DNA from: Deltaproteobacteria bacterium
GTDB lineage: Bacteria > Desulfobacterota > Dissulfuribacteria > Dissulfuribacterales > QOAL01
NCBI GenBank assembly: GCA_027028245.1
Contig: JALVJO010000169.1
Coordinates: 1-54,352 of the forward strand
Length of the DNA: 54,352 nt
Direction: 5' to 3'
The notes beneath the pieces are model-generated. The model worked only from the letters and a program-made list of their open reading frames with translations. It made no database searches and had not been told where the DNA came from. Below, in pieces: positions 4,847 to 8,745 of the stretch (positions are counted from its first letter, which is position 1; each line of letters opens with the position of its first letter). The position numbers and the translations under genes are program-made.

Positions 4847-5692
4847 GTGGAACTCTGGTACACTGAAAAGCATACTCCTGATGCCGGCATTACAATCAAG
4901 TGCCGGAAAACCCTCTTCAGCCGGCACTCGGACATTCAGCGGATCGACGTTTTAGAGACCAAGGAATTCGGCAGAATGCTGCTGCTTGACGGCCTGGTGA
5001 TGACCACGGAGCGGGATGAATTCTTTTATCACGAGATGCTGGTTCATCCTGCCGTGAATCTATCCCTGAGGCCCCCCGGCGAGGTATTGGTAATAGGAGG
5101 CGGGGACGGGGGGGCAGTCCGGGAACTCATGAAATATCCCTCTATCCGCAGAATAGTGCTCTGTGAAATTGATCCAATGGTGGTGGAAGTCAGCAGGGAG
5201 TTTCTCCCGGGTATTTCCTGCGCCCTTTCGGAAAACGACAGGCTGGAGATGGTATTCATGGACGGGGAAGAGTACGTGGGAGAAAATGAAGGCAGGTTTG
5301 ACCTGATCATCGTGGATTCATCCGATCCAATCGGAGCTGCCGAGATCCTTTTTACAGAAGGTTTTTACAAGAAGTGTTTGGAAGGGCTTTCTCTTGAGGG
5401 AATCATGGTAGTCCAGAGTGAATCACCAATCTATCACCTGCAGGTCATGAAACAGGTCAAGTATTCGCTGATTTCAGCAGGTTTTTCTCATGTCAGGTTT
5501 TACACTGCACCGGTTCCCACATATCCAGGTGGTTTCTGGTCCTGGGCTGCTGCCTTTAAAAATGACTTCAAAAACAGTGGGAACCGTTTTTTCCTGCCCC
5601 ATGAGGAGGTCGAGAGGCTTAAATTTTTTACTCCCGATATGCTTCGGTCCTGCTTTGTTCTGCCGGCTTTTCTAAAGAGGGAACTGGGCTGA
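4847..5692 (+). CDS. speE: Spermidine synthase (polyamine aminopropyltransferase)
   Basis: Start MELWYTEKHTPDAGITIKC (GTG), VLVIGGGDGG SAM-binding motif, DLIIVDSSDPIGAAEILFT. Confidence 0.93.
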   Translation: MELWYTEKHTPDAGITIKCRKTLFSRHSDIQRIDVLETKEFGRMLLLDGLVMTTERDEFFYHEMLVHPAVNLSLRPPGEVLVIGGGDGGAVRELMKYPSIRRIVLCEIDPMVVEVSREFLPGISCALSENDRLEMVFMDGEEYVGENEGRFDLIIVDSSDPIGAAEILFTEGFYKKCLEGLSLEGIMVVQSESPIYHLQVMKQVKYSLISAGFSHVRFYTAPVPTYPGGFWSWAAAFKNDFKNSGNRFFLPHEEVERLKFFTPDMLRSCFVLPAFLKRELG

Positions 5693-5721
5693 CCAGCCAT
5701 GTCAGTCGTGTGGTGGGGCAG

Positions 5722-6672
5722 TTAAAGTTTTACCGTCCTGTTTCTTCCCTCCTTCTTGGCCTGGTAAAGTGCTTTATCTACCCGGTTTACCAGCTCTTCA
5801 ATCCCCTCCGTGCGTTCTGCCTCTGTGAGACCGGCTGAAACCGTAATGGTCAGGCTTGTTTCAGGTTGTTTTACCAGGAATCTCAGTGCTGAAATCTTGT
5901 TTCTGATCCTTTCTGCTATCCCGTACGCCTCTTCGGCAGATGTGTGGGGCAGGATAAGCATGAACTCTTCCCCGCCATAGCGATATGCTGCGTCTGTTTC
6001 CCTGATTCCCTTTTTCAGGACGTCAGCCACCTTTTTCAGAACCTTGTCGCCCACCCTGTGGCCGCAGGTGTCATTAATGTTTTTAAAATGATCCAGGTCG
6101 AACATGATAAGGGAAAGCGGGTATTTATATCTCTTTACTCCTGCAAGCTCCTTTTTGAGGTCAGACTCGAAGGCCCTCCTGTTCAAAAGACCGGTCGGGG
6201 CATCAATTCGAAGTTTAGATCGAAGCTCTGCAATGATTTCGGTCTGTTTTTTCAGGCGTTCTTCCGTCTGTTTCGCCTTTGCCTCAAGGGTCTTGTTCTT
6301 GAGCATCAGGGAGGCTATTTCCTCCCTGAAAAGATTGTCCATGTCCTTTTCTTCCATGGACAAAATGGAGCTTTCCATTTCGCCTACGTGCTGTTTAGCA
6401 GAGGCCAGGAAATTGTTGACGGTGTCTTTGACCCCGCCGAGAACCTTGTCTGTTGCGTCCATAAAGGCTTGTATTGTTTCTGGTGAAAATGATTCAGAAC
6501 CTTCTTTTTTGAGGATGGACGAAAACTCCAGGGTTTTGGCCACTGCCCAGAATTCTTCAGTATAGGCCTCGGGCCAGGGCAGTTCTCCCCTGCTAACAAG
6601 CCGTTTCAAGGCAGTGCGTGCAGTCTGCGCCACCTGTTCAGCCAATACTGTAGCGGTTGTTTTCGTCTTCAT
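5722..6672 (-). CDS. GGDEF-domain diguanylate cyclase
   Basis: C-terminal GGDEF domain: LMFDLDHFKNINDTCGHRVGD and YGGEEFMLILP. Confidence 0.9.
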   Translation of the reverse strand: MKTKTTATVLAEQVAQTARTALKRLVSRGELPWPEAYTEEFWAVAKTLEFSSILKKEGSESFSPETIQAFMDATDKVLGGVKDTVNNFLASAKQHVGEMESSILSMEEKDMDNLFREEIASLMLKNKTLEAKAKQTEERLKKQTEIIAELRSKLRIDAPTGLLNRRAFESDLKKELAGVKRYKYPLSLIMFDLDHFKNINDTCGHRVGDKVLKKVADVLKKGIRETDAAYRYGGEEFMLILPHTSAEEAYGIAERIRNKISALRFLVKQPETSLTITVSAGLTEAERTEGIEELVNRVDKALYQAKKEGRNRTVKL

Positions 6673-6790: not shown

Positions 6791-8587
6791 CTATCTCTTC
6801 TCGGACAGCTGTCCTTTTGAAGCAGCCTTGGTACATGGGCTGGGCGGGGATAGCGGATTCCAGTTTTTCATTACCTTGTCCTTAAAGGAGCTGTGGCAAA
6901 ATATGCAACGGCCGGCATTCAGTATGGCCTCAAGCTCAGCCCTGTCAAAGGGCCTGAGGTCTGGTCTTGATACGTTGACCAGTCTTTTTCCCTCCATGTT
7001 CACAAACCCGTCAAGTCTCGGCATGGTGTTGTCTCCTATTTTTCTTGAAGACGTTGCCGGGATGAAATGCCATCTGCCGTCCTTTCTTTGCAAAGAGCCG
7101 CTTCCCAGGCCGAGGACCCTGCTGTCTGCGTGGCATTCCATGCAGCTTCTGGACCTGGCATTTGTCGTATGGGGATCCATCCACGAGATGGTCATTCTTT
7201 GGTAATCGCCCTTCCAGTTCTTCCTTTCATCCAGAAAGGAAATGAAATCCTGTCAGCCAGGCACGAGGATCACTACCTCATCCCTACCTGTATGGGCCTG
7301 CCTTTTCACGCCCAGGGCAGGTGCCTCGTATCTCATGTATGATCTGAACTCCTGCCATAGGCCCGGAGTTTTCTTCAGGGAAAGCTTGTCCAGCTGCTCC
7401 CTGGACTTGTCATTTATAACGTGACACCCGTAACACTGGGGCACCCAGCGGCTGTGACACGACTGGCATGAAAGTCTCTGATGGGTCTTGTGTCTGCATT
7501 CATCCTGGAGGAAGGGATCAAGGGGATGAAGTTTTCCGTCATTTTTGCCCTTTAGGAAAAACACATCCTCCTTCTTTACAAGGTTGGTGAGAACAGGAAA
7601 TTTTGGTTTTTTCTGGTTTTCCTGGAAGATTTTTTGGAGCTTAGTTCTGCCTCCGTGGCAGGTAGAACAGGTTATTTCCAGCTGTTGTTCAAAGTGCGCC
7701 CTTTCCTTGCCATCACCCATGACCTCTTTCTGACTGTGGCAGTCTATGCATATCAGGCCCTTTTGGAAATGGACATCAGGGGAAAGCCTTTTGACAAATC
7801 TTCCATCGTGAAGCTGGTCTTCCGAAAAGTCCCCGTCCTGAAAGGGGGTGCCGTAGCCTTCGGCTTCATACATGCCCTGGTAGGCAAGGCCGATCCTGCC
7901 GCTTCTGTTGTGACAGCGCACGCAGTTTTCCATGGGAATATGCCTTGTGATGAAGGGATGATCAGGTTTTCTGCCGTTTTTTTGTCTTGGTGGCTTGTAA
8001 TAGTGGCAGGCCGTGCATCCTCCTCCCCTTTCTACCAGGAAGCTCGGCAGCCTGTGCCTTTCCAGCCACAGGTGGCAGGTTCCGCACAGTTTTCGGAAGT
8101 AATCCGTTGCCGGGCTGTCCAGGCCGGATTTTATCAGCTTTTCCACTGTGAGGTCTTCATTGTGGTCTTTGGTCTCTTTCCAATAGAAGCGAAGGGTGGT
8201 TATAATGCCCCTGTTTGTAGCCATGAGGGATTTTTTGGCCCTTTGTACCTGGTCCACGTGGCATCCTTCCTGGCCGCAGGTCCTGGAAGCTACGGCAAGC
8301 TCTCCGGGATTGTATATCATGCCCTTGTGTGCAAGTTCCGGCGTGCCTGCCAGGGGATCTCCAAGATGACATGAAAAACAGCCCAGGACTTTCCTGCCAT
8401 GGGCCTTGTCAGGTCTTTCATCATGGCAGGAAAGGCACATATCGATCTGGCCGCCTGCGGTTCTTGTCACCCTGGATGGGCTTTCAAGGGGTTTGGCCAA
8501 GCACTTGGAACAGCTCCAAAAGAAGGGAGCAAAACCTGTCAGGAGGATGATTAAAATGAAGGCAAAGAGAGTATGAAGGCCTTTAAT
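6791..8587 (-). CDS. Multiheme c-type cytochrome, candidate selenoprotein (in-frame UGA at 7253..7255, Sec approx. residue 445)
   Basis: Track ORFs 7253..8731 and 6791..7195 are in the same frame; the 19 codons between them are open. Signal-peptide-like N-terminus IKGLHTLFAFILIILLTGFAPFFWSC; 11 CXXCH motifs (CLSCH, CFSCH, CGTCH, CTACH, CVRCH, CIDCH, CSTCH, CQSCH, CYGCH, CMECH, CIFCH) plus one CX3CH (CGQEGCH). The ORF-track start lies inside a tRNA and is rejected; the start codon is uncertain (ATT at 8587 proposed). Confidence 0.8.
7220..7242 (-). promoter_or_regulatory. Candidate bacterial SECIS hairpin for the multiheme cytochrome
   Basis: Transcribed strand after TGA: CAGGATTTCA-TTTCCTTTC-TGGAT-GAAAGGAAG; 9-bp stem (one T-G), 5-nt loop with G at positions 2-3, loop starts 19 nt after TGA. 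Confidence 0.75.

Positions 8588-8670: not shown

Positions 8671-8745
<75 letters not shown>

Follow-up and report, generated by a model that had tools for sequence, protein, structure and literature searches.

A predicted selenocysteine-containing relative of the dodecaheme cytochrome ExtM, encoded across an in-frame TGA

A TGA codon at 7253..7255 interrupts an otherwise open gene for a multiheme c-type cytochrome, and the question raised by the locus is whether this codon ends the protein or is read as selenocysteine (Sec), and what role Sec might then play among the hemes. The window, by which we mean the whole stretch of 54,352 nucleotides analysed, comes from a genome of 2.86 Mb in 205 contigs (96% complete); a search for plasmid DNA returned no matches. 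On the minus strand, the TGA is the sole interruption of the frame spanning 6791..8587. It is followed on its 3' side by 19 sense codons in the same frame and then by the open reading frame 6791..7195, a linkage that the first-pass annotation had proposed and that we confirm on that strand. Read through the TGA to its end at TAG 6791..6793, the gene specifies a dodecaheme c-type cytochrome of 598 amino acids with residue 445 encoded by the TGA. The extent given earlier, with one frame across the TGA, stands with the correction that position 8587 opens an ATT codon. This ATT (8585..8587, minus strand) is the likely start codon, or else there is a base error at that place, as the stretch from the upstream tRNA-Gly gene to the signal sequence has no ATG, GTG or TTG start. 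ATG precedes a similar signal-like stretch in several orthologues, and the close relative L010 has an ATG nearby. The N-terminus of the read-through protein, KGLHTLFAFILIILLTGF, resembles an export signal as judged by eye, and the cytochrome is presumably exported with its heme attached. Its neighbours in the window are genes for a GGDEF protein, tRNA-Gly and aspartate kinase. The tRNA-Gly(GCC) gene (8671..8745, minus strand) lies directly upstream, a tRNA-derived frame likewise precedes the cytochrome in the relatives L010, L012, L014 and L024, and the cytochrome and tRNA-Gly genes may be co-transcribed.

Evidence on the meaning of the TGA comes from homologues, for which we searched 99 relative genomes; a profile scan of the contigs with an alignment as query added 80 loci from named sources, and a single-sequence query gave no matches. 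Orthologues are present in most genomes of the window's order and in a few beyond it. Nearly all close homologues in the 99 genomes contain exactly one in-frame TGA, at this column. In the alignment of 128 rows, which reduce to 107 distinct homologues once duplicates are removed, that column holds U in 61 rows, C in 67 and nothing else, and the 100 distinct orthologues divide into 42 with Sec and 58 with Cys. The expectation that homologues would run through the TGA position, and have only Cys or Sec there, is thus borne out. The surrounding residues read [V/T]PG-[U/C]-[Q/E]D, and PG-C-Q is found at the matching place in ExtM-related paralogues as well as in seven proteins scoring above the ExtM cut-off. 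With Cys at this column in paralogues and true ExtM alike, Sec appears to replace a Cys that is otherwise invariant across the superfamily. Tandem ExtM-like genes were also encountered (L053, L055, L204-L216; G060, G097 and others), in which one copy keeps PG-C-Q and the Cys is absent from the neighbouring copy (Tyr, Phe or no aligned residue).

Were the TGA a true stop, a ten-heme cytochrome would end there and 6791..7195 would be a decayed remnant or a separate gene, and standard gene finding does yield two open reading frames. Against this stands the conservation of the protein on both sides of a TGA that is shared by about 40 genomes. Among the Sec orthologues, the codons after the TGA show a median dN/dS of about 0.2, both in the 19 codons from the TGA to the next Met and beyond, and those upstream show 0.14, values that are rough with dS near saturation. 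The downstream Met is unconserved (R[M/L]T) and therefore not a conserved start; the two hemes encoded downstream would lack a signal peptide, and orthologues have Cys in place of the TGA. Conservation across the TGA excludes two genes or a pseudogene, supports the single read-through polypeptide that had been put forward, and leaves the stop-codon explanation scarcely credible. Other origins of the TGA were likewise dismissed. An assembly error is excluded by its recurrence in about 40 separately assembled genomes, including the one-contig genome G023 and the Thermosulfurimonas dismutans isolate L086, and an altered genetic code by the use of TGA as the ordinary stop of speE, the Ca-ATPase gene and other window genes, from which the code is standard. 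TGA 7253..7255 almost certainly encodes Sec.

The genome is equipped for such decoding. As the earlier proposal called for, it contains selA (614 bits), selB (346 bits), selD (369 bits) and a tRNA-Sec with the anticodon TCA (UCA). Its selD (L166, G000:C120:22500-24800) has its own in-frame TGA at the active-site position, SG-U-AAKIG, an independent sign that the genome uses Sec. A hairpin with a G in its apical loop had been noted just 3' of the UGA, and one is present: the SECIS-like element UUUCCUUUC[UGGAU]GAAAGGAAG (7220..7242, minus strand) has nine base pairs and a UGGAU loop whose second position is G, at a distance of 19 nt from TGA to loop. It also covaries among Sec orthologues. In 26 of these, its six-pair core forms 90.4% standard pairs and includes 14 doubly changed cells, compared to 5.0 +/- 1.7 in shuffles (none of 500 reached that number). 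Sliding the partner lowers the score. Counts of this kind are inflated by the kinship of the sequences, and covariation is therefore taken as support, not proof. Relative to synonymous shuffles, the hairpins of Sec orthologues are stronger than expected (16.5 vs 12.3) and those of Cys orthologues are not (9.8 vs 9.3); for the single gene, the comparison is not significant in most orthologues. Thermosulfurimonas-type Sec genes have the hairpin at a slightly different place. The hairpin at 7220..7242 is a putative signal for Sec insertion.

Regarding the history of the two forms, a tree of the 100 orthologues, rooted on five paralogues and built with the Sec column left out, places all Sec forms in one group of 44 rows from the window's order and Thermosulfurimonas-type bacteria. 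The sister group (56 rows), from Desulfobulbia including cable bacteria, is entirely Cys. Three changes of state suffice on this tree. Either Sec arose once in the Sec group or the common ancestor of the Cys group lost it, the support of 93 for the Sec group being from SH-aLRT only. The 44 rows include two Cys forms, L025 (in G027) and L037 (in G032), in which TGT replaces TGA and the SECIS-like hairpin is gone. Loss of the Sec machinery is excluded as the reason for these exceptions, for G027 and G032 both keep selA and selB. Among the named carriers of the cytochrome are lineages that disproportionate sulfur or oxidise sulfide: Thermosulfurimonas dismutans, Desulfocapsa, Desulfobulbus and cable bacteria (PMC4911364, PMC12998232, PMC11976967). 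This membership hints at sulfur chemistry and may only mirror phylogeny.

The claim of twelve hemes made in the first-pass annotation holds on counting: the read-through protein contains 11 CXXCH motifs and one CX4CH motif, ten before Sec and two after. From the N-terminus and all on the minus strand, these are CLSCH (residues 51-55, 8423..8437), CFSCH (70-74, 8366..8380), the CX4CH-type CGQEGCH (104-110, 8258..8278), CGTCH (168-172, 8072..8086), CTACH (191-195, 8003..8017), CVRCH (222-226, 7910..7924), CIDCH (280-284, 7736..7750), CSTCH (307-311, 7655..7669), CQSCH (374-378, 7454..7468), CYGCH (385-389, 7421..7435), CMECH (482-486, 7130..7144) and CIFCH (561-565, 6893..6907). The eleventh and twelfth are the two further motifs that had been assigned to 6791..7195, the C-terminal open frame of a gene finder that stops at TGA (minus strand). 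Outside the heme motifs, Cys364 (7496..7498, minus strand) is a candidate axial ligand. This position is Cys in 100 of 100 orthologues, His in true ExtM and Met or His in other paralogues, and the exchange of Cys, Met and His between families fits an axial heme ligand that changes type. Eleven candidate distal ligands can be counted for 12 hemes: seven His that are nearly invariant, the invariant Met122 and Met290, Cys364 and Sec/Cys445. Pfam cytochrome c7/c3 models match the read-through protein. In the AlphaFold model (mean pLDDT 77), residue 445 lies in a turn flanked by strands 436-443 and 448-452; Foldseek with this model found no match in the PDB at E <= 0.001, and the one hit of a PDB sequence search, cytochrome c-552 (3ubr), was weak and local. 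On balance, a location of Sec at or beside a heme is somewhat favoured.

A possible partner is suggested by gene neighbourhood and co-occurrence. In two cases, Thermosulfurimonas dismutans (L086) and G073 (L157), the cytochrome gene is directly preceded by a Rieske gene and a gene for a short cytochrome b; L112 and G021 also have cytochrome b immediately upstream, and G025 has it close by. The short cytochrome b resembles ExtP at 62-79 bits, below the cut-off. Cytochrome b is present in 37 of the 40 genomes that bear an orthologue, and in 34 of 34 such genomes of high quality. Among the 59 other genomes, it is found in eight of the order, mostly incomplete assemblies, of which at least two (G025, G040) carry an orthologue or a fragment; outside the window's order, genomes without an orthologue gave no cytochrome b match above 58 bits. 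Shared ancestry in part explains this co-occurrence, and the complex is for that reason kept as putative. In the window genome, the Rieske/cytochrome b pair is encoded on contig C167 (L165:5887..6282 and 5057..6019), away from the cytochrome gene. That the cytochrome gene stands alone in the window and that its context differs in Desulfobulbia both count against the complex; within the window's own order, no conserved operon was found and the neighbours differ. All considered, it is somewhat favoured that the cytochrome works with the Rieske/cytochrome b pair.

Based on the combined evidence, the best explanation is a joint one, to which we assign a probability of roughly 0.83: a single exported 12-heme Sec cytochrome that has a Rieske/cytochrome b partner and in which Sec has a redox or catalytic role next to a heme. 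UGA 7253..7255 would be decoded as Sec under the direction of the hairpin just 3' of it, giving one exported dodecaheme c-type cytochrome, a divergent ExtM relative in which the superfamily-invariant Cys of PG-C-Q would have become Sec. Together with the Rieske protein and the short cytochrome b, in a quinol complex whose c-type arm it would form, this cytochrome could exchange electrons between menaquinone and the periplasm, with one of the hemes next to the redox or catalytic site at which Sec445 would act. At the level of sequence, the coding of Sec and the complement of 12 hemes are established, and the first-pass view of a Sec-containing single exported multiheme cytochrome came through the sequence-level tests well.

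The role of Sec445 within this explanation can be conceived in different ways. In the bacterial selenoenzymes that have been characterised, the Sec residue is as a rule catalytic, a precedent that speaks against Sec445 as an axial heme ligand, that is, a natural selenolate ligation which tunes the potential and is not a substrate site. Such ligation would accord with a Cys/Sec invariant across the ExtM-like superfamily, including proteins with other tasks, with the tally of 11 candidate distal ligands for 12 hemes, and with position 364 being swapped in the manner of an axial ligand; we regard it as possible and on the whole doubtful. A better, yet still less than even, chance is given to Sec445 as a catalytic nucleophile, in a site next to a heme where sulfur or selenium species (polysulfide, thiosulfate, selenite) would react. 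This finds an argument in the sulfur-disproportionating or sulfide-oxidising carriers, for example Thermosulfurimonas dismutans (PMC4911364), and in the Geobacter ext cluster, which is linked with selenite and tellurite reduction via ExtI (PMC5877670). It has to contend with a distribution that may track phylogeny, with a 2026 survey of disproportionation genes that names no cytochrome (PMC12998232) and with the lack of a resolving Cys conserved across the superfamily. The cytochrome might instead be a mere soluble or membrane-attached carrier with no tie to Rieske/cytochrome b, and Sec a lineage-specific, near-neutral swap for Cys. The gene's isolated position in most genomes of the order would agree with that, as would the return of two lineages to Cys with selA and selB kept. 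Retention of Sec in 42 diverged sequences at high cost, and the constancy of cytochrome b in the high-quality genomes together with its adjacency in several lineages, tell against a mere carrier and make it an unlikely account.

Lastly, the findings would have consequences for annotation and for the physiology of these bacteria. Gene finders that take TGA as stop truncate the gene and drop its last two hemes, which probably makes the annotations of such genes in this group of organisms incorrect. The family is represented in cultured sulfur disproportionators and in cable bacteria, whose chains of electron transfer are only partly understood, and the close pairs of Sec and Cys orthologues, together with the two Cys exceptions, make the contribution of selenium to a multiheme cytochrome directly testable. 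A more specific and rather speculative proposal is that of an energy-conserving step at a Rieske/cytochrome b quinol complex in which the c-type arm is the 12-heme selenoprotein and Sec serves as a heme selenolate ligand or as a sulfur/selenium catalytic residue. If true, sulfur-disproportionating bacteria and their relatives would conserve energy by a step not known until now. In some relatives, a single gene cluster encodes the Rieske protein, cytochrome b and the c-type cytochrome, an arrangement reminiscent of bc1 and b6f; the putative complex would differ in that a 12-heme selenoprotein takes the place of cytochrome c1 or f.

A review of May 2026 lists 119 prokaryotic selenoprotein families and subfamilies (PMC13188914), and the only multiheme cytochromes found in its table are ExtKL and a member of the octaheme tetrathionate reductase family. 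The family described here is absent from those 119, and no description of it was found in the open-access literature; an earlier annotation in a database is possible. It would add a selenoprotein family to that 2026 inventory, as one of very few multiheme selenocytochromes. The tetrathionate reductase family octaheme cytochrome (TIGR04315) is also a multiheme c-type protein with a Sec form and has eight hemes; membership is rejected, as the window protein has no match to the model at E <= 0.01. ExtKL (GSU2937-2936; NF040886), a predicted Geobacter selenocytochrome, resembles the window gene in being an exported multiheme c-type cytochrome with a Sec TGA within, but belongs to a separate family with five hemes, compared to 12 in the window protein, and no NF040886 match was obtained at E <= 0.01. 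The best NCBIfam model is ExtM (NF040943), and weak matches to ExtN and ExtO cover residues 369-490. Membership in ExtM itself is excluded by a score of 281 bits against a cut-off of 800, and no ext cluster surrounds the window gene; the orthologues score 279-309 bits and true ExtM 970-1084 bits. A second ExtM-like gene of the window genome, L050 (G000:C102:53500-60500; 286 bits), has Cys in PG-C-Q and likewise no ext cluster around it. ExtM (GSU2935), the dodecaheme cytochrome of the Geobacter selenite/tellurite reduction operon, shares with the window protein the 12 hemes, an alignment over most of the length and PG-[C/U]-Q at the matching place, and in some lineages (L086, L157) the likeness extends to neighbouring genes related to ExtO (Rieske) and ExtP (cytochrome b). 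The window protein differs in having Sec for Cys and Cys364 for His. By its predicted sequence, it is a divergent relative that stands beside ExtM rather than in it, and what is new is the Sec variant of an ExtM-like dodecaheme cytochrome.
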